From contig JACGCK010000047.1 of NCBI GenBank assembly GCA_014925825.1, forward strand, positions 186,001-250,000: a DNA stretch of 64,000 bases, given 5' to 3'. The stretch is from Pholiota molesta (lineage: Eukaryota; Basidiomycota; Agaricomycetes; Agaricales; Strophariaceae). Shown here one piece after another: positions 16,887-61,171 of the stretch; the stretch's first letter is position 1; each line of letters starts with the position of its first letter. The position numbers and the translations under genes are program-made. The notes beneath the pieces are model-generated. The model saw only the letters and a list, made by a program, of their open reading frames with translations, ran no database searches and had not been told where the DNA came from.

Positions 16887-16894
16887 CTCCCCCG
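16887..16894. repeat. Left 8-bp target-site duplication of the palindrome element
   Basis: CTCCCCCG directly precedes the element end CACCTGACAAG. The same 8 bases follow the other end (19417-19424). They occur once at the empty site in block B (26551-26558). Confidence 0.85.
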
Positions 16895-16925
16895 CACCTG
16901 ACAAGCCCACATCAGTGATCTAATT

Positions 16926-16956
16926 AGAGGTGGTAACATACGTTGTTACCACCTCT
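16926..16956. repeat. Small hairpin nested in the left arm
   Basis: AGAGGTGGTAAC, a 7-base loop, and GTTACCACCTCT form a perfect 12-bp stem. Its mirror lies at 19355-19385 in the right arm. Confidence 0.8.
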
Positions 16957-19354
16957 AAGGAGACGCCCTTTCCCTATTAACAGGCCTCTTTCATTAAACC
17001 TTCGTTAAAGTTAATTCTACTTAGAAAAATAAGTCCTCTGAGGGTATTCCGGGTAGCAACGGCACCGGGACCACTCCCACACTCATCCCGTCCCCTTTCC
17101 GCTCGGCATCAACGTCCCGCCGTGGGACATTGCCTAAATAGGGTGCGCGCTCCGCCGCCTGATGCGTGCGCGCCCGTCCATCCCCCTGCCTGTTGGCACA
17201 GAGAATGGGCTCTAGCTCAGTCCGTTTCTCCTCATTCCTGTCGCATTTTGGCACATAGATAGGTATAGTATATAGGAGTATTAATATGACGTTTTAAGTG
17301 AATATATACAGTGTGATTCATTAAAAATGCGGTTTCTTATGGCAGGGGAGGGGGAGCAGAGGCAGGTATATGCCTTCAACACATGAGGACTCTTATATTA
17401 AGAGAGGGATACTATCTATACTACTATAAGTACTCATCTGTTGAGCTATGGGTCCCTAGGTGTTGATAGAAGTGACCCATGGGGAGATCTAGTGGGAGGG
17501 TGTCATAGGGCATAAAAGTAACATGTTCCAATGCTCTCAGTATCAATTAAGTAACTGTACATGGTGTATTATACTCATATAGCTCAATATATGCAGCCAG
17601 ATGTACCACAGATACAGTCAGTCCTCTACCATTGACTCATCTACCTGGTGATACATTGGATTATATCTCAGCATCAGGGATAGATAGTCTCCTAATCTCT
17701 TCGGATTAGGGCTCCCCCAGGTCATATCTATCTATCCCTATCGCAATAATATAGCCAAGAAGGTTGGAACATATGGGTAGAGGCACCTGATGAGGCCTTA
17801 CATACTTATACATAGATATAGGCATATGTAGGGTGTTAAAAAATGATTGAGCATATATAACAGCGTAGAGGGGTACTATACCATACCTACATTGATTCTA
17901 TGGAGTAATAATGATACATCGCAGGCGGAAGTGGGTCATGAGGAGGTGAGACATGGCAGAGACATCTAAAGGACGTATTCGGCCTCCATAAATACAGGTA
18001 GGCGGTATAAAAATCTATAAAGCTGGAGTTTAGAAGCTATAACAAATTGCTACAAAACGAGATACGCCGGAAGGGAATCGAAGCAGTGGCTAGAAAGATA
18101 TGTTGGAATTAATGGTCAGAACATCGGAATAGAGTCAAGCCTACCTGGTCACACTTATGTGCCTATGTTTAGATCAATGTTAAAATGATGTCCATTACAT
18201 TGTTTCCAGCATATCTTCTCACTCACTCATTCAATTATCCTCCGGCCTATCTCATTCTGTAGGGATTTATAAGAGCTATAATAGTCTAGCTTCACAGATT
18301 TTTAGACCGCCTACCTGTATTTATGGGGGCCAAATACGTCCTTTAGATGTCTCTGCCATGTCTCACCTCCTCATGACCCACTTCCGCCTGCGATGTATCA
18401 TTATTACTCCATAGAATCAATGTAGGTATGGTATAGTACCTTCTACGCTGTTATATATGCTCAATCATTTTTTAACACCCTACATATGCCTATATCTATG
18501 TATAAGTATGTAAGGCCTCATCAGGTGCCTCTACCCATATGTTCCAACCTTCTTGGCTATATTATTGCGATAGGGATAGATAGATATGACCTGGGGGAGC
18601 CCTAATCCGAAGAGATTAGGAGACTATCTATCCCTGATGCTGAGATATAATCCAATGTATCACCAGGTAGATGAGTCAATGGTAGAGGACTGACTGTATC
18701 TGTGGTACATCTGGCTGCATATATTGAGCTATATGAGTATAATACACCATGTACAGTTACTTAATTGATACTGAGAGCATTGGAACATGTTACTTTTATG
18801 CCCTATGACACCCTCCCACTAGATCTCCCCATGGGTCACTTCTATCAACACCTAGGGACCCATAGCTCAACAGATGAGTACTTATAGTAGTATAGATAGT
18901 ATCCCTCTCTTAATATAAGAGTCCTCATGTGTTGAAGGCATATACCTGCCTCTGCTCCCCCTCCCCTGCCATAAGAAACCGCATTTTTAATGAATCACAC
19001 TGTATATATTCACTTAAAACGTCATATTAATACTCCTATATACTATACCTATCTATGTGCCAAAATGCGACAGGAATGAGGAGAAACGGACTGAGCTAGA
19101 GCCCATTCTCTGTGCCAACAGGCAGGGGGATGGACGGGCGCGCACGCATCAGGCGGCGGAGCGCGCACCCTATTTAGGCAATGTCCCACGGCGGGACGTT
19201 GATGCCGAGCGGAAAGGGGACGGGATGAGTGTGGGAGTGGTCCCGGTGCCGTTGCTACCCGGAATACCCTCAGAGGACTTATTTTTCTAAGTAGAATTAA
19301 CTTTAACGAAGGTTTAATGAAAGAGGCCTGTTAATAGGGAAAGGGCGTCTCCTT

Positions 19355-19385
19355 AGAGGTGGTAACAACGTATGTTACCACCTCT
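19355..19385. repeat. Small hairpin nested in the right arm
   Basis: It is the mirror of the 16926-16956 hairpin, with the same 12-bp stem and the loop reversed. Both sit about 30 bases inside the element ends, a place where transposase-binding sites are often found. Confidence 0.8.
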
Positions 19386-19416
19386 AATTAGATCACTGAT
19401 GTGGGCTTGTCAGGTG

Positions 19417-19424
19417 CTCCCCCG
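19417..19424. repeat. Right 8-bp target-site duplication of the palindrome element
   Basis: CTCCCCCG, then AACGCGAACGG, which continues the host sequence seen uninterrupted at 26559 onward in block B. Confidence 0.85.
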
Positions 19425-43690: not shown

Positions 43691-45488
43691 CCCGTCGTCT
43701 AGTCTTAGCATTGCCTAGTTTCGTCTCTATGTGGGCATTCGAGTATTATCTTGGGCGTGAAGAGGTCAGGGTGGTTCAGGGAACGGGGGATACAGTGAGT
43801 TCAACTCTTCTGCTGGTTCTGCCTTACTCACGCCCCTGTTCAGCAGGATTGCTGTCGTTGTTGTTGCCTCCCGCACCCTGTTCTCGTCTTCACGGCCCCC
43901 AATTCGCCTTCATTGGGTGTGCCGTCCAATTCGGAGTCGGGGCCACTTCGTGACGTGGTGGGGTTCGTTGGAGAGGAACGGTTGATGAATGGCACCCTGT
44001 TCGAGTTTTGTGTTATGCCTCGCGCAGTACGCTATGGTTCCTGGTGAGCATGCCGTTACCTCCTGAAACTCGTGCGCATATAGAGGTTTATAGGCGACAT
44101 CTCGGCCAACCATGATCATTCGATAAAGACGGACGCGAAGGACCGCTCGCGATCAGGCTACGACGTACATATTGAGAACTATACGAGCTTCGATACTGTC
44201 CGTAATGTCGATCTCTCGCTGTCCATACCCGCATCTTATATATCATCTTCGTCAGGTCGATCGCAAACCAGCGCACTTTCCGTGATCCTCGGATAACCAG
44301 TTGAGTGGTTCATTATCGTTTCGCCGCGTTGACACCCCCTTTCTCATAGGGAATCATCTGCCGATCGAAATGCATGTTGACGATGCAAGTCCTGGCTTTC
44401 TCAAGCACAGCGGTAGTGGTGGAGTCCCTGGTATTCGATGGCCTAAGGCTGAGCGAGTAGAGGCAGTGGGACAGATACTCGGTTCACCTGCTCGCGCTGT
44501 TCATCGGGTACGCATGGGTTTTCCTAAGTTTTCCTACTTTTTCGTGTTCCACTTTTCTCGCGCGTTCAGAGTCCAAACGGGCGTGTCTGCATTTTGTCCC
44601 GGCTTCATGCACAGGATCCGACGTCCCTCGTCGAATGTGGTTGAACCCAGAAATTTTCGTGTCACTCGACGTCCATTCAACCTTGAAAGCTTGCTCCCTG
44701 CGACGGTGACGTCGTCGGTGGGTGGCTTTCCTGTCTTGAGGGACCGGGTCAGATGTGGATTTTGGAGGAGCAACCTTTGCCACTGACAGTGTTCGTCGTT
44801 GATCCTGTCATGGACCGGGTGTTTGTGAGCGCAGCATTGGGTTCTGTTAAGGACCGTTCGGCGCTAGGCGTGGAGGCTGCGTGGTCTCGTTTGTGGGTGG
44901 CGTTCGCGTGGTAGCATGGCGGTGCAGCACGAACGCGCTGCTGGGCCATGTTCCCCTCCTCTTGCTCTGGGTACGGGTACTACAGCCGTCCTCATCCTCA
45001 TCAGGAATTGTGCCTCTGACCGCTTAGACTTTCATTGGAGTCCATTGTTATCCATATGTTTCCCCCGATCGCACGTACTCTATCGATAATTTGAAGCGCA
45101 GATTTTTGCAATTTGTTTCCGTACCTTGAACGTGATTGTATTTAGCGAGGAAATGGCGACCGGGGGTACGCAGAATTCAAATGACCTGTCCGCGAGGAGC
45201 TGAGATGTCATTTTGCGTGCATTGTTCGACTAATTGAGACATTTTTTGTGGACGGTATAATACCTTCCGAATCGTTATCGATGGAAGGAATGAAATTCGG
45301 TGCTGTATCCAATGGGATCGCTGATTCTGGATGGTCGGTATGAAGCTCCGTGTTGGTGCCACTCCGAGAATGGGGAGTAGATCGTGTATACAATGAGGGA
45401 GCCATTGTTCTCAGATAGTCGTAGCCACGCTACGGAAGATTGGCAGAAAGTGCAACCCTTCAATCGTGAATAGCTTGCATGAAATTAG

Positions 45489-45629
45489 TATAAAATGTAC
45501 CTTTCCTCGAATGTCAATTTACTATCGTCTCTCGATGTATTCTCTTCACCAAGTTCACCTACACAGTGTATCCCGCTATCGTACCCTGAATTCACTCTAT
45601 TCATGCCTATCTTTGACGACATTGACGAT
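45489..45629 (+). promoter_or_regulatory. TATA box and conserved 5' coding segment, block F
   Basis: TATAAAATGTACC at 45489; TTTGACGACATTGACGAT at 45612. Confidence 0.55.
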
Positions 45630-46380
45630 CCCTTGCGATTGCGACATCGCCTCGTCTCCGTCGGGATTACGATGGACAAATTCGAAAAGACGGGCTGATA
45701 CATACGGTACGAGCATAAGCAGTAAGTAAATCTCGCCCCTACCACCTGCTTTCCCATTGATGAGATTTACATGTACATTATACAGGATGATGCTTCTTTT
45801 CCAGCCATCGCGCCTCACTACGTGCCAGACGGGGCAGCCAGAGCACTTCGCCGGACGGAACTCGAGTGCGGACGCCCATGCCATGGCGTCATTGCAGCAG
45901 TACCATCTCGAAAGACCGTAAAGTGCAAAGTAAGTCGTCGTCGGTCCACTCTTATTCGTGTTCATATAAGCTCACGTATATCATCTTCTATCTACTTCTT
46001 TTGTTTGGTGACAGAAACCAGGATGCACGAAGTCCTACAAACAGGAAAAGGAACGAAACTACCACTATACTCATGGCAGATGTAAAGGAACTGGTATCCC
46101 CCGATGGCCTCGGCCTCCGTGCCCGCGCCTGCGCCTGCTCGCCCACCCTCATCCACACTTTCCCGCGTCCATATACGGTCTGCGCCTACACCTGCGCCCA
46201 CCACTAGCTCATGATCAAGCGCGCTGCCGAGCAGGCGCGAGTCCTCGATGGAGAGCATGGCAGGTGCATTGCCAGAAGACCGCACACCCGAATCGAATAC
46301 TGGGCTCAGTCCGCGCACTCGATCTGGATTTTCACAGATAGATGTGGCGGATGTGAGTTGGGGTAAGCTGGTGTTTTTTC
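45534..46380 (+). pseudogene. Block F gene copy with in-frame breaks
   Basis: An ATG at 45534 opens a frame reading SLTTLTIPCDCDIASSPSG and reaching a GTAAGT donor at 45722; the acceptor is at 45785. The second exon reads LLFQPSRLTTCQTGQPEHFA and ends AMASLQQYHLERP before a GTAAAG donor. A later piece reads SSMESMAGALPEDRTPESNT and SGFSQIDVADVSWG but has a TGA stop shortly before it. The exon junction also meets a stop in the simplest splicing. The copy in block E has different indels. It is Ser/Pro-rich and not recognised. Confidence 0.4.
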
Positions 46381-48480: not shown

Positions 48481-50515
48481 CGGGCCGCCTCGTGCGGGAA
48501 GTCGCCAACCATGCATCGTCCACTCTCCACTGTCCTCCCCAAGCATCGCCGCGGCCACCCTACCCCCTCTGCGTTCCGCTCTTTGTGCCACTTCTATGCC
48601 CTCACACGGCCCTTGTATGCATGGAGGTCTACTACTAGCGATCGTCTCTCCTCGATCATGAGGTCCTTCGCAAACGGCAAGCCTCGAGGATCGGCTGGCA
48701 CTGTCTTCACGACTAGGAAGTCGTGGAATTGGAGATCAGGTAGGCCGGGTTCTCGCTGCTGTGATGTTGAGCGCCTCGCTCACGCTCCTGCTTACCTCCG
48801 TCATAGGCTCTGTTGCCGTCGCCACTGCCGACTTCCGCTTCGCGTCACCATCGTCCTTCAAGCCCTCCCCTGCCAGTTCTCGAGCACGCTTCGGGAACTG
48901 TGGCGTATACGCCCCTCACTGTTCGACGCCGTCGACTGTCGTGGTCTCTTACGCCGGGAAGGACCGGGCGCTGTGCTCTTTGGGTTGTGATTGGAGTTGA
49001 TTTGGGCCAGGAGTCGTGAGGATAGACCATCGATCACTCGAAACCCTCCCCCGACTCCTGAACAACTACGCCGTCACTCAGGCGTCCCGAGCCCCATAAG
49101 CCGTCTAGCCTCAGCGCGTTCTAAGTTTCGTCTTCGTGTGTCCAGGAACGCCACTCTGCAAGCGACCTGGCTTATCCTCTGCAATCTCTGGCGCAAGGAA
49201 AGGTGGGCCTGCTGGGCATTCGGGTGTCATCTGGGACGTGGAGAGGTCAGGAACGGGGATATGGTGAGTTCGACTCGTCAGCGCGGAACACGGCTGGTTC
49301 TGCCTTGCTCACACTTCTGTTCAGCGCGATCGCTGTCGTCGTGGCCCGCACCGCTTCCTCGTCCTCGCGGCCCCCCAATTCGCTTTCAGCGGGTGTGTCG
49401 ACCAATTCCGAGTCAGCGGCCACTTTGTCGACGTGATGGGGTTCGTTGGGGAGGAACGGGTGATGAATGCCCCTGGTGCGTGATGTCTCGCGCAGACGAT
49501 GATTCCGGGTGAGCAGCCCGTACCCCCCTTGAAAACCCGTGCGCATATACTCACGTACGAAGTTTGTAGGCGACATCCCGGCCATCCTGGAGCATTCGAT
49601 GGAGACACGCAGGAACGCTCGGCGCTCAGCTATGACGTACGTACATACTGGGAACTGTACGCCTGTCCGGTACGTCGACCCCTCCCTCGCTGCTCGGATG
49701 TGCATCTTACGTACGGCCTTCGTCTGGTCGATCGCAATCCAGTGCACTTTCTGCGATCCTTGGATAGTCACTTGAGTGGTTCGTTATCGTTTCGCCGCAT
49801 TGACACCCCCTTGCTCATAGGGAATCATCTGCGGATCGAAATGCATGTTGACGATGCAAGCCCTAGCTCTCTGAGGCACAGCGTTAGTGGTGACTCGTGT
49901 GTGGTCGTCAATGGCCGGAGGGTGAGCGAATAGAGGTAATGGGACAGATAGTCGGTTCACCTGCCCGCGCTGTTCATCGGGTACGCATATAGCTTTCCCT
50001 ACGTTTTCCTGCTTCGTGTTCCACCTTTCTCGCGCGTCCAGGACGGGCGGGCATGTCTGCATTTTCTCCCGGCTCCATGCACAGGATCCGACGTCCCTCT
50101 TCGAACGTGGTTGAACCCAGAAAATTTCGTGTCACTCGACGTTTGTTCGAACTTGAAATTTTGCTCTCCGCGATGGTGCGTCGTCAGTGGGCTGCTTTCC
50201 TGTCTGGATGGCCCGGGTCGGATGTGGGTTTTGGAGGAGCAACCTTTTGCTCGGCGAGAAGTGTCGTCGTTGATCCTATCATGGACCGGGTGTTTGTGAT
50301 CGCAGCACTGGGCTCTGTTAAGGACCCATTCAGCGCTGTGCGCGGAGACTGCATCGTTTCGTTCATGGATTAAGTTCGCGTGGTAGAAAGGTAGTGCAGC
50401 GCGAACGCGCTGCTGGGTCATGTGTCCCTCCTCTTCCTTTGGGTATGCGTACTGCAGCCGTCCTCGTTAGGAGTTGTGCATCCTGCCGCTGAGAATTACA
50501 CGGGAGTCCATTGTT
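48481..50515 (+). repeat. Block E, left half: exon-like segments
   Basis: It follows the block order: ATCGCCGCGGCCACCC near 48545, a GGTAGGCCGGGTTCTCGC donor near 48748, a TCCGTCATAG acceptor, and then DNA matching block F from about 49200. GAGTCCATTGTT ends at 50515, the last clear match to block F before the insertion. Confidence 0.6.
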
Positions 50516-50562
50516 GTACGTGCACTCGCAGTATATAGAGTATACACGGTATCGGACGCTGG

Positions 50563-50573
50563 CGCTGGTGACC
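50563..50573 (+). repeat. Left subterminal inverted repeat of the 9.1-kb insertion
   Basis: CGCTGGTGACC, with TGA following it to make the 10-mer GGTGACCTGA. GGTGACC occurs again at 50578 and GGTCACC near 50607, a cluster of sites as expected for recombinase binding. Confidence 0.55.
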
Positions 50574-50639
50574 TGACGGTGACCCTCTGGGTTCGCAGTG
50601 GTTACTGGTCACCGGAAGTCACCAGTTGAATATACGGAT

Positions 50640-51130
50640 TTTGGTGAATATACTAGCCATGTGTACTCCCCGGATCATTCGCCAGAATACCATGAGGAGG
50701 CCCATTGGCCCGATAACTTTTGCCGTACCGCCAATCTCAATTATTTCCAAAGATAGAAATCGCCGGCCAAGATCTAATCAAATCGGGTGTGCCACATTTG
50801 TAGGCGCCCGCCGTAAATACCTTGTAAACCCATGAAATGCCCTACTGAAGCCTACACAATTGGGCTGTAGATACTATAGACGAGTGGTGTAACTTCCAGG
50901 TAATTATCTTAACCTCAAAAGCTGAATGAGCATACCAAAATGAGTAGAATAGTCGCAAAACACAAACCAGCATCACGTTTTCCATGATCGGAATTGTCTA
51001 AGATTGTCTACTGCCCTAAACTATTCGCCGCCGATGTCGCCCAAAAACTCATTGTCTCCTGTGTCGCTTATCTATGGGCCGCTTCCACCTGCACAATTTA
51101 CATTATTTGCCCCATAATTCCAATTAAACG
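50640..51130. other. Leader between left end and recombinase gene
   Basis: No ORF of note. It presumably contains the promoter of the recombinase gene; no clear TATA box. Confidence 0.4.
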
Positions 51131-54100
51131 ATGGATAATACATTTGTGGGCCAAAAATCCCCCCAAAAGCGTCGCTTTCTGCACCTTTCTGGGCATCCCG
51201 TTCCTGCCCTTCAAGCTAAGCAGCCTGACCACTCCGAACCTCTTCACTGCAGCGACAACCCATCTGACCAGATTTTACTTACTGGACATCTTCCGGATAC
51301 ATCGCCCATTCAAGAAGCCATGCTGTATACCATGAATGCGGATCCTTACACTGGCAATGTCCCCGACAATCCCAGTGTCAGCGCAGTCATTCCATCAGCG
51401 ACATCCCATTTTTCTGGCACTCCTGGATCACTCTCAGTCATTGAAAAAGAGTCGCATTTATTCCGTCAACAGCTTCAAGATAAAATGGCATCGGACAAGG
51501 GGACTGAAGTGGCCTACTTGAAGCATTTAAGGCGATATGAAGAATACTGGACGCAAGATCAGAAACGACGAGAGTCCGATGCTCAGGCAAATGGGGGTAA
51601 TTGGGAGGTTATTGGCCCTCATCCAATCACTGCAACGAAGGTGTGCGTATTTCTTGAGTATGAGTCTACTCGAAATAAGGTGTGCATTTAATAAGCAATC
51701 AAATCTATTCGTTCTATTCCAAACTTAATCTATATTCCAGTTTTCTTCAGGAGATGGAGCCGAAATTCCAGGTACTAGACTTGGCCCATCTGCAATAAAA
51801 CAACGAGTATCCGCACTCGAGTATTTTCGTTTTCATCAGCAACACGAGGATGCATACAAGGCATGTCCAGAATCGCAGAGGCCTTTACGCGACGACATCA
51901 GGATCAAGACTTTTGAGAAAGCCGCCCAAGCCACAGAGCCAGAACGGGCCTCGCAAGTCCAATCAATGAAAGCGGCCGGCATTCAGGCAGGTATGGTACT
52001 ATTAATCTATTTTTTACAAGGTCTTCAGGCGACTCACATTTCTACGTACAGATACGGTTACGCGCGAGCAACTTACAAAAGCATCAATCTATTATCTGGA
52101 GTCCGAGCCAAGACGAAATTCCACATCATCCCAGCTTCACACGTCAATCCGAGACCGTACCATGCTTCTCCTGTCAACTGCGATGGCATTCCGCGGTGAT
52201 AATGTGCGCGAGATAACTTGGTCAGATATCCTTATTCGTGAGATTCCCTTGGTTGACATCGGACTTGACTATAAAGCAATGGTCAGATTCTTTTCAACTC
52301 TGTGATATTTTTCACTCATTCTGTGATAACTTCAACAGGCCCTCGTTATCTACTCCAACCAAGGCAAGGAGAACACGTCAGGCCGAATCGATGAGCATGG
52401 CGCTTTCCGGCACCGCTTGCCAGAGCATTGCGGTGTTGGCGCCCTTGCACTCTATTTTTTTAGTATCTTCCATATCTCCGAATCAGATGTACCCGACTTT
52501 TCACCTGATTTTTCGCACTCGGAAGGTGGCCCACTTGGATTCCGCTCATGGTATCTCTTGCGCCTATTTCCAGGAGGTCAGAACGAATTCAGCAGGATGT
52601 CGTTACAAAGTGAGTTCGTCATAAAACAATACGCTCCAAAAATAATTCTAACACTGTATCTTACATCCTATAGACCATCAGAACCGTGTATGCAAAATGA
52701 AGGAGGAGACAGGCATTGACGTTGCCAAAGTCACGCATATTGGCCGTCCATACACCGCCAAAGTTGCCCGGGAGGCTGGAACTTCACAGGAAGGTGCGAT
52801 GGCGCTAGGGGTTTGGATGTCACCCTCAACTGGTTCTTTTCGTCCATGCTATGATCGTGCATTGCCACTGGATGGTCTACTTGGTGCTGCTGGATTCAAT
52901 GCACAGAGGCAGGAGACTTATTTTGTTGCACGTGAAATTCTTGGTATGCATTTCTTCCATCTCGCCTTGATTAAATTAATGACGCGCATTCTAAGACCCC
53001 CGGATGAGCTTGTCAAGTCCATATTTCCCTGGATTGAAGCCGAAGAAAATTCCCTTGCAGAGCGGTCCAAATTGTTTGGCAAGAAGGCGCATGATAATGC
53101 ACTCTTGTCATTGCTGAACACCCTTCGAATGTTTCGACGAGTGCTCCTACAAGACTGCGCGGTTCTCTTCGCAAAATATCCGACCCTTGCGCTGTTTAAG
53201 TACGCACCATTTACCTCCCCAATCTTTCATCAATTTTCCTCCGACTCCCTGCGCGCAATTCAGAGTGCAGAGGACTCTGCTCGCCGGAATCTCCAACAGC
53301 TTCCCGAGAAAATGGCATCAACATTCCGTGGCATCCTGGCGACGAACTCTCTCCACCAGGAAATAATGCAGCAGTCCATCCAATCGACTCATACGCAAAT
53401 CGATAGCAAAATTACTCTGCTCAAAACGATGATGGAAGCTACTCTAATTCGCGGATCGACGACGAAGAAACGGAAAGCTGTTGAAGAAGTATTAAAGCAG
53501 GTCTCAAGTGCGTTTCCTTCTCTTACTTGCATTAATAATTTTATTCAATGATATGTATATTATAGACCAATTACTACCACCAACAGCGGCTGAAATCACA
53601 GAGTCGGAACAGCTAGAATCTCAGAAGCGCCGCAAAGTACAGCCGTGTCAGCCTCAGGCCAGTTCATCAGAACTAGGGTTAACAGCTACTGCGACGTCAA
53701 CTGTACAAGAAATGCCACCTGAACCCATCCCTCCTTCGCAAATTCCTGAGCCATACGTCAGTCCATCAGGAAACATCTACCCATCTACCACGTTCGCAAT
53801 TTTGTCGGACGACCTCCATCTACGCGAAATTCAGCAAGCGTCGATTCAAAGACTCGAAAATCTCTTTACATATGAACGCATCGCAAAACATGTGTTCGAA
53901 TGGGAGACTAAACACGAGGATTGGTTGCCGCGCTTTGAAAGCTTTTGGAGGCCAAAGGGACGTGATTTGACAGTCGAGGATATCTGGAGGGAGGACCGGT
54001 TTGGAATCGAGGGGACATTCTCTATTCAGGAACTCACGGCTCGATGGGGCGCCCGGTGGAAGCGAAACGAACCACGTCTCAAGACCGAAGCAGGACGTCG

Positions 54101-54302
54101 CAAGAAAATTATTCAGTTGGTTGAAGAGCTCGGTGGGAAGGTGAACTGGACCACCGACCTAGCCCTTCGGTTTCTCCATGAAAAATATCCTATTGATTCT
54201 AAAAGTATGGTTGCTCATCTACGTACAGCCCGCTCATTTATGGAATATCTCAATAAGAAGACCAAGGAGGCTATTCTCGAGGCGTCAAATTCGTATCCTT
54301 AG
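51131..54302 (+). CDS. Crypton-type tyrosine recombinase with GCR1_C-like C-terminus, 956 aa
   Basis: Six exons join without a stop: 51131-51679, 51741-51990, 52052-52281, 52339-52609, 52674-53507 and 53566-54302. The central part has the fungal Ndc10/CBF3-domain-2 fold signature, which belongs to the tyrosine recombinases of Crypton transposons. STAMAFRGDNVREITWSDI holds the first arginine (R314). VTHIGRPYTAKVAREAG gives H455-x-x-R458. GSFRPCYDRALPLDG carries the candidate nucleophile Y493. All catalytic positions are present, unlike in yeast Ndc10, which has lost them. The C-terminus (VEDIWREDRFGIEGTFSIQE and WGARWKRN) matches the GCR1_C DNA-binding domain often joined to this fold. The enzyme would cut and rejoin DNA through a circular intermediate. 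The first ATG of the frame was taken as start; an upstream exon cannot be excluded. Confidence 0.85.
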
Positions 54303-54420
54303 TTAATTTAGCAGTTCGTACATTCTATCATTCCTCATAAAATCTATCGACTTTGATTGTATCCTAGCGCCCATCTTAAAAACTTCAGAGCCTGCTCATT
54401 GAGCTTGCTATACTAGTAAG

Positions 54421-54445
54421 TTGATTGATCAAACTGATCAATCAA
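54421..54445. terminator. Perfect 11-bp palindrome after the recombinase gene
   Basis: TTGATTGATCA, loop AAC, TGATCAATCAA. It lies about 120 bases past the stop. It could mark the right end of a smaller Crypton or a 3'-end structure; composition changes sharply to GC-rich just after it. Confidence 0.45.
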
Positions 54446-54676
54446 TCACCTTCACCGTGACGCGCGTCTCTCTCTCCCCTACCTCCATCAGCAACCTCGC
54501 TCCATAGGGCACCCAAGTGCGGCTGTCCGCCTCCCGGCTGCGTATGCACCGATGGCAAAGCCAGGACAGGGTAGGACTCAGATGAGGATTCAGATGGAGC
54601 CGACGTAAACGAACCCACAAAGGTCCGTGGAATGACCCGATGGATACACGATGGGCGACGGAGGGTTGCAGCAATG

Positions 54677-54778
54677 GTGAGTTTGCTTCTTTACGCGCGA
54701 CTTGAGCTCACTCCTGGGCTCGTCGCGCGTCTCTTCTTCCACCAGCGTTTTACTAACTCGTCCAACTTTTTTCGCCAG
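54677..54778 (+). other. Intron with structured hairpin, copy 1
   Basis: GTGAGTTTGCTTCTTT starts a 102-nt intron ending TTTTTTCGCCAG, with a TACTAACTC branch site. Inside, 54693-54730 folds as a 9-bp stem ACGCGCGAC/GTCGCGCGT, a TT bulge, a 7-bp stem GAGCTCA/TGGGCTC (one G-T wobble) and a 4-base loop. Confidence 0.65.
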
Positions 54779-56371
54779 AATCGACGACGACAACCGTCGT
54801 CCGCACCGACCGCCCTTGCGACCTGACAACGAACCGCAGCCTCGGCGGCTAGGCAGCCTGACCAGTGCACGACGCCGCTCAGCCGGCTCGATTCCTCCAA
54901 GACAAGGTGGCCTGCCCGCCATCCAAGTTTCACACCCGGAACTGGATGACGGCCAACGAGAACGACGAGAGGGAGGCACAGAGGGAGGCGTAGAGGGAGG
55001 CGCAGAGGCACCAATGAAGGAGATCGGCACTAGGCGAGTCTGATCTTCTACAAACGGCTTGAGCTCATGCCTGGGCTCGCCGTTTGTTATCATGATCTTT
55101 TTTTTACATACTAACTCAATACCTCCATTGCAAGGAAACACAACCCCACTGCTCTGCCCTCGTCCAACCGCTGTCGCCCTCGCAATGGAGCCCCGCCTCA
55201 CCCGTCATTCATCCTTGCCCTCGCCCTCGTCGACGACTCCTTGGCAAACGATGCAAGTCCTGATGCGGCTTGCATCGTGTCGGACTCTCTTATGCGGAGT
55301 TCGACGGCTGTTGGATTTCCTGGCAAACGATGCAAGCCCTTATGCGGCTTGCATCGTGTCGGACGCTCTTATGTGGAGTTCGGCTGCTGGGCTACGACAA
55401 CGAGGGGCTTCCTGGCAAACGGCGCCGGCTTACACGACGCCAGCGCCGTGCTGGGCTCTCATACGAGGAGCTCCAGCTGCCGGAAAGACGACGATGACGA
55501 TGGGGCTTCACCTGCGGCGACGACCACCCCACCAGCCATTGACGACGACGCCCAATCGAACGACTCGAGCAGCGATGCTCTCGCCGGTTCGAGCAGCATC
55601 GGCGGTGCGAGCGCCCGAGGAGCCCCAATGACCCATCGACACTCTGATGCGGCATTCGGCTGCTGGGCTACCACAACGAGCCTCGACGACGACGCCCAGT
55701 GGACGCCCACGCCCTGCGAATCGATGGACGGGGCTTCACCCGCGGCGACGACCATCCCACCAGCCGTCGACGACGACGCCCAATCGATGGCCATGCCCTG
55801 CGAATCGCCGTTTGCGACGACGACGAGTAACGGCGGCCTGGCCATCGACGACGACGCCGAATCGACGGCCGCGCCCTGCGAATCGCCGTGTATGACGAGG
55901 ACGAGTCCATCAGGCTTCGCCCGCGGCGGCGACCATCCCACCACCCATCGACGACGCCGCCCAATCGACGCCACGCCGTACGAATCACCGTGTGTGACGA
56001 GGACGAGTCCATCAGAGCCGGTGTTCGGCGCCGCGGGAGGCGTCCACCACCATCCAACTGCAACGGCATTCGCGACGAGCGCGGCGTCGACAATCCGACC
56101 ACCAACCGCCATAGGGGCCCGGCAACGAATCCACAAGAGCCGACGGTTGATGCAGACGACGAGGAGAACGAAACATCGACGACGACGCGCTGAGCGGCGC
56201 TTTGGGCGAGGACGGCAAGGCCAGGAGGCGCAGTGTTCGATGCCGCGGGAGAGACATTGGGGTATTGCTAGCAGACATGATCAATGTGAGCGCCCTTTCG
56301 TTGTTCTGAAATTTACACTTACCGCAGCCGTTCCAGTGCCACAGCAGCTCGCCGCCACGTACCGCCTCTAA
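54779..56371 (+). CDS. GC-rich gene with Asp/Thr/Ser-rich tandem repeats; start not found
   Basis: The frame IDDDNRRPHRPPLRPDNEPQ begins in an exon from 54779 to 55033. It joins across an intron (55034-55134, GC-AG) to an open frame through 56371, about 497 codons in all. It contains repeats such as DGASPAATT-PPA-DDDAQS and PCESP-TRTSPS. An optional 42-nt intron (56286-56327) keeps the frame. No convincing start codon links to the upstream exon: joining 54676 to 54779 in this frame makes a TGA. Alternative frames are also open over parts of the repeat, so coding is uncertain. No domain is recognised. If real, the product is a disordered, acidic and then basic protein. Confidence 0.4.
55034..55134 (+). 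other. Intron with structured hairpin, copy 2
   Basis: GCGAGTCTGATCTTCT starts a 101-nt intron ending TACCTCCATTGCAAG, with a TACTAACTC branch site at the same relative place as copy 1. At 55050-55087 the stem is ACAAACGGC/GCCGTTTGT with the same TT bulge, the same GAGCTCA/TGGGCTC upper stem and a 4-base loop. The lower stem sequence differs from copy 1 at most positions yet remains fully paired. Confidence 0.65.
55243..55420 (+). repeat. 79-bp tandem repeat
   Basis: GGCAAACGATGCAAGTCCTG at 55243 and GGCAAACGATGCAAGCCCTT at 55322 start adjacent copies; a third, partial copy begins at 55413. Because 79 is not a multiple of three, the copies are read in different frames. Confidence 0.75.
55535..56000 (+). 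repeat. Degenerate GACGACGACGCCCAATCG repeat array
   Basis: GACGACGACG-type units start near 55541, 55685, 55769, 55847 and 55950, each followed by a CCCTGCGAATCGCCG-like block in most copies. Spacing varies from about 78 to 144 bases. Confidence 0.65.
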
Positions 56372-56416
56372 TTCAAACGGCGCTCGCATCATCAAACCCC
56401 CTCGGCCGCGTACAAC

Positions 56417-56720
56417 ATGAAGATTCGCAGGCCATCGTCGACCTCACCGATCGTGGAGCCCCGCCGCTGCCACGCCCGTCGTTCGCACTCGCCCAGCTGG
56501 ATATCGGATGGAAACGGCCTCTCGCTGCTTACCAGCTATCACCACAACACGACAAGGAGGCAGAGAGGCACCACCACCTCTCAACGGCGTTCGCGTCGAA
56601 AGCCCTGGGCCGCCGCTTACGAGCTCTCGACGTCGCCTCTCCTCGACGACGACAGCGAGCCCTCCGGACATCTGCTCGTCAATGCCGCGTGCATCGCACG
56701 CACCACAAGCTCTGACCGAC
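56417..56720 (+). other. Possible exon, unrecognised
   Basis: One plus frame starting near GAAGATTCGCAGGCCATCG reads QAIVDLTDRGAPPLPRPSFA and LDIGWKRPLAAYQLSPQHDK for about 100 codons before a stop at 56720. It has a coding look but no start and no domain; two other frames are open over parts of the same stretch. Confidence 0.25.
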
Positions 56721-57372
56721 CCGGCCGTCCACGCACCGCCGGCGTCGTGTATGGCTGCCGCATTACCGTCTACACGCACAACGAACACTGCACTTGCAGT
56801 GTTCTGCACCGTTGAGACGCATCGCGGCAGTGCTTACATTTCCTGAGCAGTCTGCAGCCTTCAAACCGTGAGTACCATCGTCAAACCGCCGTTCTCGACA
56901 GCGTACCGCAGCGGAATCACAACACGGCCCAGGGAAATTGTCGGGGCAGGTCTATTTCGCTACTTCCTGCGCTCCGCCGATGTCGAATCGACAACCACGT
57001 GCTGCAACGCGCCGCCATCGACAACGCGACGACGACTGCAAGCCTCATACACTGTTTGGGGCTGGGAGGGCCGCGGTTGTACCATCGGCCATCGAGGGTG
57101 GCAAGGGGAAAGGCATATTTAAAGTAAAGTTATAACTGCAAGTTGGCAAATGTACTTAGTAGTAAAACAAATACACATAATATTTTTCTCTCATTTGTGT
57201 GAATGCCTCTGGAAATCTAAGGGTGATGGGTCAGTGCATCTATGGCTAATTTGAGTGAGATGGAAAGGGGTAAAATGAGACGGTGCTGGACAGTAGAGGA
57301 TGTAAGACATAAGCCGACATCTTGGCTTGAACCATCTCCTGCATCATCAAGAACATCATCCAATTAACCAAC
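56721..57372. other. Flank between repeat gene and nuclease gene
   Basis: Composition changes from GC-rich to AT-rich near 57120. The right part should hold the promoter of the nuclease gene. Confidence 0.4.
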
Positions 57373-59335
57373 ATGGGAATCAATGGACTCTGGGAGGTGT
57401 GTATAGCAAATGTTAGTATTGCAAAATACTAAACAAGATGGCCATTGGAATAGCTTCTCGGCCCCGCTGCGCAAGCCTACACTCTGAACGACATCAGCCT
57501 TATGAACGGCCGCGGCTGCTCTGCGACGAAGAAAAATAACGCTCTTCGTGTCGGTGTCGACATCAGGTATGTCTTATCTTCTTGGAGACATGACATTTTC
57601 TTAAATAACTGTGTCACCAAGTGTCATCATGAATGAATGTGTCGCTGCAAATCAAAATACTCACCTTTATCGGTACAAAACCGCGAACGAGCTTCGAATT
57701 TTCTTTTTCAAGCTGTGTAAATTCCTTCGCCAGGCGCCGGGCATCATGATCTTTGTATTTGATGGTCCCAACCGACCATCGTTCAAGCATGGCCGATATA
57801 TTGACACGCAAACCGAGCCGGAATGGTCTAACAATTGCAAGACCATTATTGAGGCGTTTGGGTTTTATTGGCATCAAGTAAGTGCTTTGTTTTATTGAGC
57901 AGCGGATTCATGACACTGAAATCAATTAGGCGCCCGGTGAAGCGGAGGCCGAGCTAGCAATGCTCAGTCGCTACGACGCCATCGATGTTGTTATAACGAG
58001 CGATAGCGACGCTCTTGTGTTTGGAGCACAATGTGTTATGAAACCGTACGTGCATACACTGCTCGAAATATAATTAAATTTCTAACTTCTTTCATATCAG
58101 TATTTCGGGCTCCAGTGGCAGCCGCTATCTCCTTTTCTCAATGGACGCAGTTGAGAACACAGTCGGCCTTTCTCATGGAGGCCTCCTTTTGATTGCTCTT
58201 CTTTCAAAGAGCGATTATTCAGATGGATTGGTTGGCTGTGGTCCCGGAATATCTGCTTCACTCGCGCGCTGCGGCTTTGGCGAGCGGATTCTTTGGGCTG
58301 TTGAACGACTGGAGGATTTCAAACTTCTCAGGGAGCTGGAGAGCATTTCTTCGGATATCCAGGCCGAGCTTCGAAGTAATTCCCGTAATCTTCTTAACTC
58401 GTGCTATCCACAGCTTGCGTCCAAGTTTAGCATTGACATTATTGCTCCGAACAAGGTCTCCGCATTCCTCGCTCCAATTGTCACCATCAGCTCGTCTTCG
58501 CCACGTCTCCTATTGGGTATGATCCCTAACTGGATCTTGAAGGAGCCCTGTATTCCTCGCATCAGCCAATTCTGTAGGCAGTCCTTGGGTTGGGAACAGA
58601 ATACACTGGAGAAGAAGTTCAAGAACATCTTGTGGCCAGGAGTCTTTCTCCGGATCCTCAGTTCGGTATGATCTTTCGAGTTCTACAAATGCTTATACTA
58701 CTTACTAATATAATTCTGTTTAAATTCAGCCTTTAATCATCTACGACCATGCTGAAAAGCTCTGCGCGACGCCGCACAATCAGACAGAGATTATGACGGC
58801 ATCTCTTCGCGAACGAAAGAAAGGAGCCGGACTCGGAAGATGGGTACGTGTGTGCTATTCGACGGACAACTTTCTCGCACTGCTGGAGATCAGCACGAGC
58901 AGTGCAAGAAAGCCCACGAATAAAACCTGGGTCTCTGCGGAATATCTTCCCCAGTACGTTATCTCGACACCCGCCCTGCCACGTTCTCGTCGTCATCATG
59001 TCACCACATCTTGTGTTTCTACGAGGGTAGTTCCAGCACCGGCGAGCATTATCTCGACACCTAATGTTCCACGTTCTCGTCAGGCCACACCCTGCGCTTC
59101 CACGAGCGTCCTAGCGCCAGCATTGATATCCTCTGCTTCCGAGTCACCCGATCCGCCAACCATCATGGATGTAATAGATTTGGTCAGTCAAAGTCGCAAA
59201 TTGGCTAAGATAGGCGTCCAAAACTCCGGAGAAGTCTTGGAGATCACAGATTCCGAATCCGAAATTGAGATTGTCCATTCACCTCACCAGCGGGTGCGCT
59301 CTTTTTCTCCAGAATACATCGTCATTAGTGACTAG
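57373..59335 (+). CDS. XPG/Rad2-family structure-specific nuclease, 559 aa
   Basis: Six exons join without a stop: 57373-57396, 57454-57566, 57622-57877, 57930-58045, 58101-58665 and 58730-59335. The start MGINGLWELLGPAAQAYTL is the family's N-terminal block, used by GEN1/Yen1 and FEN1 relatives. Metal-binding residues appear in the expected order: D44 (VGVDIS), D93 (FVFDGPNRP), E135 and E137 (APGEAEAELA), D156 and D158 (TSDSDALVFG). LLSKSDYSDGLVGCGPGIS (D208, D211) is the helix-two-turn-helix DNA contact. The family cuts flaps, bubbles or Holliday junctions. Which one applies here is unknown; the MG-N-terminus and the length suggest the GEN1-like side. The last 140 residues are Ser/Pro-rich. 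It lies near the right end of the 9.1-kb insertion in the same orientation as the recombinase. Confidence 0.85.
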
Positions 59336-59461
59336 TAAAGCACCTTCCATAAGCTTAGAATGTCTTTGTATAATATGTTTTGATTCAAGTTTTAATGTTA
59401 CATGTTACAGAACTAATAATTACATGCCATTGAATTCAAGAATGTTGTATAATTTACGACG

Positions 59462-59527
59462 GGGGGGAGAGGCCACCATGTTGTGTTAAGCGCTTGGAAC
59501 GAGCGCCTAGATTGCTACTCTCCCCCC
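59462..59527. repeat. Hairpin near the right end of the insertion
   Basis: GGGGGGAGAG (59462-59471) and CTCTCCCCCC (59518-59527) are exact reverse complements, with AAGCGCTT and GAGCGCC words in the loop. Confidence 0.6.
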
Positions 59528-59574
59528 GGCCCGTTCGGAGCCTAAACGAGCGATGCGCGCGCGCGCCAGGCCGA

Positions 59575-59614
59575 GGTCACCAGCGGCCATGTCACGCCGT
59601 CACATCAGGTCACC
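59575..59614 (-). repeat. Right subterminal inverted repeats of the 9.1-kb insertion
   Basis: GGTCACCAGCG (59575-59585) and TCAGGTCACC (59605-59614) are the reverse complements of two overlapping words at 50563-50576. GTCAC recurs between them. Confidence 0.55.
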
Positions 59615-60117
59615 CGCGCGCCAAAACCAGCTGGGAACCAGGCCACGTGACGACACCGATCAGGCGAAACGGTTTCGATACATAGTATACTTCCCCCCGA
59701 TCGCACGTACTCTGTCGATGATTTTGAAGCATAGATTTTGCAATCTGTTTCCGTACCTTGAATGTGATTTGTATTCGGCGAGGAATCGACCACCGTGGGT
59801 ACGCAAATGACTTATCCACGAGGAGCTGAGCTGTGATTTTGCGTGCATTGTTCGACTAATTGAGAAATGTTTTTGTGGAGGGTATAACCGTTCCGAATCG
59901 TTATCGATGGAAGGAATGAAATTCGGTGCTGTATCCAATGAGATCGTTGATTCTGGAAGGTCCGTGTTGGTGCCACTCCGAAAACGAGGAGTAGATCGTG
60001 TATACAATGAGAGAGCCATTGTTCTCAGATAATCGCGGCCACAAATTTACATGGCCAAGATAGTCAGAGAGTCCAATTTTCCAACCGTGAACAAGTGAAT
60101 GGCGTGCACGAAATAAG

Positions 60118-60249
60118 TATAAAATGTACCACTTCTCGAATGTTAATTTGCTATCGTCTCTCGATGTATTCTATTCACCTACACAGTGTATCCCGCTATC
60201 ACACCAGGAATCAACTCTATTCACCCCGATCTTTGACGACATTGACGAT
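60118..60249 (+). promoter_or_regulatory. TATA box and conserved 5' coding segment, block E
   Basis: TATAAAATGTACC at 60118; TTTGACGACATTGACGAT at 60232. Confidence 0.55.
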
Positions 60250-61171
60250 TACTGGCGGTTGCGACATCGCCTCCCCCGCGTGGTCTCCGTCGAGAGCACC
60301 ATGGATATGGAAAGATTCGAGGAGACAGGCTCAGGCGCATAGATATGGCCCGAGCATGAGCACGTAGTATGTATTGCCCGTGCTACCTGCGTTCGCATTG
60401 ATACGATTTACATGTACATTATACAGTGCGATGCTTCTTTTCCAGCCGTCGCGCCTCACTACGGGCCAGACTGGCAGCCAGAGCACTTCGCCGGACAGAA
60501 CACGAGTGCGGATGCCCGTGCCATGGGCCCATGGCATCATTGCAGCAGTACCAGCAGCAGTGGGGCGGTTATTACATGGCGCAGATGCAGCCGCCACCGC
60601 AGGACCTTCAAGACCTCCAAGTGCTGGGCGCTCCTTCGACCTCGCGGCGTGCACCGCCGCCGCCGCTGTCGCAGAAACGCATAGCTGCATCGCACGATTG
60701 GGCCTACCAAGCCTGGAGACGGCTGCTTGGATCGACAATCACTTGCATCCTGAAGGTAGATTGTCACTTTTTTGCGAATCGATTATCAGGCTAAACGCAC
60801 ATCATAGACCCAACTTCTCAGGAGGGTCAGACTTGGGTCAGACAGCCTTATTGAGCAAACAACAAATGGGCTACTCACCGAGCTTGGATATGCCGCGTTA
60901 CAAGGGGGCATCCGGCGCATTTGCGACCGTGCCCGTCGATCCATATTCGACCGGTGCTGATGTCGAAATGTCCCTCCCGCCTCCCGACGAGTCTCTTCAC
61001 AGACGAGACAACGGTCTACGTCGCGGCTACGCATCGTCTCTAGTAGCATCGCCCCAATCATCTACCCTCCCGCTCATCAGCTCGGTGGTTCGCTCCTCGC
61101 TTCCACACTCATCCGGCACATTGGCTACCGCACCCGCCAACCCCGTATGCGTACGGCGCCGATATCGATAA
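60161..61171 (+). CDS. Block E copy of the F/E gene, up to 316 aa, frame uncertain
   Basis: An ATG at 60161 opens an exon ending at a GTATGT donor (60367). It joins at 60427 to a frame open to 61171, giving 316 codons. The frame shares LLFQPSRLTT with block F. A 1-base difference then moves it away from the QPEHFAG reading of block F, and an 8-base addition follows. A different frame in the same stretch reads SLQQYQQQWGGYYMAQMQ and PPPQDLQDLQVLGAPSTSRR, which looks more protein-like. It is therefore either a gene with a changed frame or a pseudogene. The protein family is not recognised. Confidence 0.35.

Follow-up and report, generated by a model that had tools for sequence, protein, structure and literature searches.

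At positions 50537–59683 of a 64,000-bp stretch of the Pholiota molesta genome (assembly GCA_014925825.1, contig JACGCK010000047.1, positions 186,001–250,000 of the forward strand; hereafter the window, part of contig C411) lies a 9,147-bp element on the plus strand, AGAGTATACACGG...GTTTCGATACAT. It carries a tyrosine recombinase gene at its left end and an XPG-family nuclease gene behind it, separated by a repetitive middle, and it is very probably a two-gene Crypton. Further copies and empty sites were sought in the same genome (65.6 Mb on 625 contigs).

The recombinase gene (51131–54302, plus strand) was spliced by hand into exons 51131–51679, 51741–51990, 52052–52281, 52339–52609, 52674–53507 and 53566–54302, with a further intron possible near 52944–52995 in exon 52674–53507. 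Its product combines an NDC10_II domain with a GCR1_C domain (PF12550, residues 830–899, E 1.5e-8). All six catalytic residues are present, namely R314 (52192), K353 (52366), H455 (52736), R458 (52745), W481 (52814) and Y493 (52850), which bears out an earlier reading, made from the sequence only, of the left gene as a Crypton-type recombinase with R-HxxR-Y intact. The R-H-R-Y residues recur in nine to ten of ten aligned sequences, and the predicted fold of a recombinase relative (P0001) agrees with a tyrosine recombinase. A search of the PDB by sequence with the recombinase gave no meaningful match.

The nuclease gene (57373–59335, plus strand, likewise spliced by hand, with exons 57373–57396, 57454–57566, 57622–57877, 57930–58045, 58101–58665 and 58730–59335) encodes a GEN1-like protein of 559 aa with an XPG nuclease core (PF00867, E 3.5e-17). 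Seven acidic residues sit at the metal-binding places of the XPG family and presumably have the same roles here. The predicted fold of a relative (P0010) is nearest to GEN1, with a clear margin over FEN1, EXO1 and XPG. Behind the core, where a GEN1-type resolvase would have a chromodomain, strands at 329–380 of this model fall within the GEN1 alignment (1–398), and the part behind residue 316 is barely tested by the fold comparison. The likeness to GEN1 makes four-way junctions a more specific guess for the substrate. The protein ends (59290–59335) in SPEYIVISD, which may resemble a SUMO-interacting motif; similar C-terminal words (IVISD or IDLT) are present in several relatives. A scan of viral contigs with the nuclease alignment returned no relative.

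Between the genes (54303–57372, no strand assigned), the middle at 54.3–57.3 kb is G+C-rich and low in complexity and contains no supported gene. Pieces of it (54650–57100) recur elsewhere in the genome, on contigs C78, C2, C224, C7, C594 and others; since C78 matches C2 at 93% through 2.5 kb, another repeat family shares middle sequence. The search for these repeats scored the best 40 of 66 candidates, and the repeat counts are a lower bound. Two further genes in the orientation of the recombinase had been proposed from the sequence; the nuclease, on the plus strand, is one, but a third gene was not confirmed in the low-complexity sequence of the middle.

An insertion with borders definable inside the window had also been proposed, and it is real, with refined ends 1 and 6 bp from those first given. 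Comparison within the window shows that another block of the local repeat array, block F, aligns to both flanks of the element without its interior (44009–45049 to 49477–50515 and 45059–45905 to 59691–60553, both at 79%), so that about 9.17 kb is extra in the element-bearing block. A second block without the insertion, on C54, aligns as far as 50507 and again from 59700, with 84–85% identity; its junction reads GCAGGATTTAGTATAG, and the window minus the element would give GCAGTATATAGTATAC. The exact ends at 50537 and 59683 were transferred from a second copy, on C235, and from its empty site on C422. The flanks of the C235 copy match C422 at 92–94% and, when joined (with some junction bases missing from the join), align end to end, 237 query bases to 246 bases of C422. 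The empty site reads CCACCATTGTAGGATATAT followed by GTCATATAATTG, and the filled site reads GGATATAT followed by AGAGGATACACGG on the left and CGGTTTCGATACAT followed by GTCATATAATTG on the right. C422 may represent the second haplotype or a paralogue of the segment, and in both cases it offers a clean empty site for the C235 copy. No target duplication beyond AT was found there, and a target duplication of the DDE type was rejected for this reason.

The window element has AGTATA on both of its flanks, and TATAT and TACAT are present at both full copies. TATAT (50532–50536, plus strand) is the target's version, which also precedes the C235 element and sits in its empty site, while TACAT (59679–59683, plus strand) is the element's version at the right end, which reads CGATACAT in all three copies found. 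These words may act as the crossover core, presumably with a 5-bp crossover spacer. Further in, the window element and the C235 element each contain five GGTSACC words, all less than 130 bp from an end and none in the interior, at distances of 31, 42 and 71 bp from the left end and 70/71 and 103/104 bp from the right. In the window, three of the five words lie on the left (50567–50613, with starts at 50567, 50578 and 50607), at the same positions as in C235, and the remaining two on the right (59575–59614, with starts at 59575 and 59608), neither cluster being assigned a strand. The right-hand words of C235 lie 71 and 104 bp from the end. Each cluster probably serves the recombinase as a set of arm-type binding sites. 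Inverted words common to both ends had been reported, and they too are real: 50562–50576 and 59605–59619, starting 26 and 65 bp from the ends, match at 14 of 15 bases, and the inverted-match score of the two 130-bp ends was reached by none of 400 shuffles of non-overlapping dinucleotides. No inverted repeat was found at the very termini of the element.

Other copies with the same two ends, together with empty sites, had been named as the support to look for, and the C235 copy and the C422 site provide both. The C235 copy (251537–262050, minus strand, 10,514 bp) is full-length, has both ends as in the window element and keeps its order of left end, recombinase (78–80%), middle, nuclease (69%) and right end (89%). 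Its recombinase is split between W and Y, at the site equivalent to window 52814–52821 (L030/L031), by a 1.27-kb insert that has inverted ends (TAGTGATCGGCACGGGT) and an 8-bp target duplication and that we take to be hAT-like. The third copy, on C242, is truncated: the left part is gone to the window equivalent of about 55.5 kb, and what is retained is the nuclease and a right end that stops at CGATACAT, with only the one of the two right-hand GGTSACC words that lies at 103 bp. Some 4 kb farther out is a frame that was judged by eye to be Copia-like. A Pholiota molesta protein, P0133, matches C242 at 98–100% over its three pieces, and in it the glycine preceding the first catalytic glutamate is changed to arginine. 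A fragment on C143 (L026) represents part of an XPG gene and has no recombinase match.

Whether recombinase and XPG genes neighbour each other beyond expectation was a further question put by the sequence-only reading, and what this genome offers speaks in favour. With the NDC10_II profile, two full copies score above the cut-off and each is followed by a nuclease (2/2). A weak NDC10_II relic with stops, on C201, falls below the cut-off and lacks an XPG match in the 1.5 kb to either side (L080). The GCR1_C profile matches the two full copies only. XPG_I gives at least 26 matches at at least 23 loci by our own count; the element copies account for three of these loci, and two of the three have a recombinase. 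By a hand estimate from 23 loci in 65.6 Mb, a given gene would be followed by a nuclease on its own strand within 4 kb in about 1 of 1,400 cases; the window and C235 copies share ancestry and count once. Beyond this genome, linkage was judged from protein records, in searches that scored about 8,000 candidates each and took in the best 120 of 170 and the best 120 of 224 nuclease matches. A 733-aa protein of Mycena kentingensis (P0159), the one joined protein among 171 examined (162 of them nuclease matches), has a recombinase C-terminus at residues 90–241 joined to an XPG nuclease from residue 251. The simplest explanation is a gene model that spans two neighbouring genes. A second M. kentingensis record (P0153), whose nuclease is 93% identical and whose contig has an equal listed length, is annotated as a nuclease alone. 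The joined protein indicates that the pairing of recombinase and nuclease is not private to Pholiota.

These observations bear on whether the locus holds one element or two, nested or side by side. In the second case a short Crypton would end near 54.45 kb, and to its right would lie a separate nuclease transposon, for example an Academ-like one. Two insertions could account for the middle sequence that is repeated elsewhere in the genome, for the C242 copy with its nuclease and right end but no recombinase, for the differing divergence of the two halves and for the other XPG loci (24–66% per stretch) that exist without an NDC10_II/GCR1_C recombinase. We nevertheless consider them improbable, since C235 shows the same order between the same outer ends, 10.5 kb apart, with one clean empty site, and the left and right ends share inverted words and GGTSACC like the ends of one element. 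The adjacent pair suggested in Mycena argues in the same direction, as do the recombinase searches of the genome, which return only the two copies and the C201 relic and no solo recombinase copy ending near 54.45 kb. That the nuclease belongs inside the unit, as first proposed, is seen from the same ends and order in C235 and from the nuclease and right end in C242.

Codon comparisons indicate that both genes are under purifying selection. Between the window and C235, the recombinase has a synonymous divergence (dS) of 0.74 (bootstrap 0.64–0.84) and an omega of 0.13 over 914 codons, and the nuclease a dS of 2.21 (1.58 to saturated) and an omega of 0.14 over 506 codons; between the window and C242, the nuclease has a dS of 0.10 and an omega of 0.39. 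The unequal divergence suggests that nuclease modules have been swapped between related elements, with the border in the repetitive middle, the other reading being unequal rates. It is plausible, if short of probable, that the nuclease is a passenger of the Crypton, an agaric XPG/PIN family member captured and then kept or swapped for reasons of its own, such as host repair, rivalry with other elements or chance, with no role in transposition. The genome has many XPG paralogues elsewhere, the CryptonF structures in the available part of PMC3212892 are described without a nuclease, and the two halves of the element differ in divergence, as would be expected of exchangeable cargo. A passenger is harder to reconcile with purifying selection between the full copies (omega 0.14), with a comparable nuclease following a comparable recombinase C-terminus in Mycena and with the fact that no other cargo gene was seen in the element.

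The reading we prefer, with a probability of about 0.5, is that of a CryptonF-type two-gene transposon whose GEN1-like nuclease would cut junctions to complete the reaction. By analogy with other Cryptons, the recombinase would excise a circular form of the element, with CGATAC-ATAGA-GTATAC at the joined ends as the core site. The circle would then insert into a loosely similar AT-rich palindrome, AGTAT-ATAGT-ATACT in the window and GGATAT-ATGTC-ATATA in C235; TATAT, from the target, would then remain at the left, and TACAT, from the element, would stand at the right. The joined ends have the spacer ATAGA and the targets ATAGT and ATGTC, and because of this difference the four-way junction would be mismatched and poorly finished by the recombinase. 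To our knowledge, there is no settled account of how tyrosine recombinases insert at sites unlike their own core. The element-borne nuclease would resolve such recombination junctions, and its cutting of this mismatched four-way junction, by which the reaction would be completed, is a possible though tentative step. A junction role agrees with the gene content of the element and with the selection on its two genes. It is more doubtful that a Crypton family spread through mushrooms carries its own GEN1-like resolvase for finishing strand exchange between mismatched sites.

Several observations weigh against the two-gene transposon with a junction-cutting nuclease. Both folds were predicted for relatives rather than for the window proteins, the model of the recombinase relative is of modest confidence (mean pLDDT 64), and neither GEN1_C (PF18380) nor a chromodomain was matched in the nuclease by sequence. 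The window recombinase may have a one-base frameshift after Y493 if the C235 intron is also spliced there, as exon borders using the 52-bp intron break the frame; with this possible frameshift and the split recombinase of C235, none of the copies can be called active with certainty. Divergence between the two full copies is far greater in the nuclease half than in the recombinase half, so the pair is not strictly co-inherited. By lower-bound counts, 21 of the 23 XPG_I loci, C242 included, have no NDC10_II or GCR1_C match on the same contig, so most members of the nuclease family are found away from this recombinase. Finally, the recombinase relative of Agrocybe pediades (P0004) and the XPG relatives found in that species (P0016, P0090 and P0136) are on contigs of different length and are thus unlinked there.

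An element with a junction-cutting nuclease would suggest a division of labour that is directly testable. Such elements may also have fed the large XPG/PIN gene families of mushrooms, and they are a possible route by which repair nucleases move between genomes.

The surroundings of the element are repetitive in their own right. From 12.3 to 63 kb, the window is a diverged tandem array of multi-kb blocks that are about 70–88% alike, with related blocks on C54, C90, C100, C292, C356 and others; three of four array stretches that were translated can encode a short peptide with FDDIDD. At 16894–19417 lies a 979-nt inverted repeat whose arms are 100% complementary, and its 566-nt centre contains a second inverted pair (85%). 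Some loci are paired on two contigs (for example C19/C285, C90/C224 and C235/C422, the last pair at 92–94%), as if haplotypes had been assembled apart.

Among known systems, Academ DNA transposons are said to have an XPG-like nuclease, whereas the present element has the ends and the first gene of a recombinase element. With most subscription journals and Repbase outside its reach, a literature search found no paper on Academ and XPG and none on Crypton and XPG together, and no title listed in related searches names such an element; the available part of PMC10799480 mentions neither XPG nor Crypton. The element had also been compared with the Starships. As in those, an inward-pointing tyrosine recombinase lies at the left end with another gene behind it and short inverted words near the ends, but the likeness goes no further in this two-gene, basidiomycete element. 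It is very unlikely to be a basidiomycete or miniature Starship, as DUF3435 (PF11917), the domain of Starship captains, has no match among the Pfam-A matches listed at E 1, the 9-kb size compares with a lower bound of 15 kb (PMC12134995, in part), and the GCR1_C tail is a CryptonF trait in the portion of PMC3212892 at hand. GEN1 and Yen1 share with the nuclease the XPG core, the acidic residues at the family's places and the best fold match (of relative P0010), whereas the nuclease here is transposon-borne and shorter, with no match to GEN1_C by sequence. Cryptons have mostly been described with a single recombinase gene. In the part of Kojima and Jurka (2011, PMC3212892) available to us, CryptonF elements of fungi and oomycetes encode one protein with a tyrosine recombinase and GCR1_C, are low in copy number and mostly end in 6-bp direct repeats; one oomycete group, CryptonF-2_PS, adds a C48 peptidase, and a Fusarium element, MarCry-1_FO, is fused with a Mariner. 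The element described here resembles them in its recombinase and GCR1_C in one protein and its low copy number. Terminal direct repeats of 4–6 bp and no terminal inverted repeats would be expected of a CryptonF; TATAT and TACAT may be such direct repeats, though the C422 empty site has no duplication beyond AT, and the inverted words here are subterminal. It differs from them in its 9-kb length, its clustered inverted subterminal words and its additional gene for a GEN1-like nuclease.

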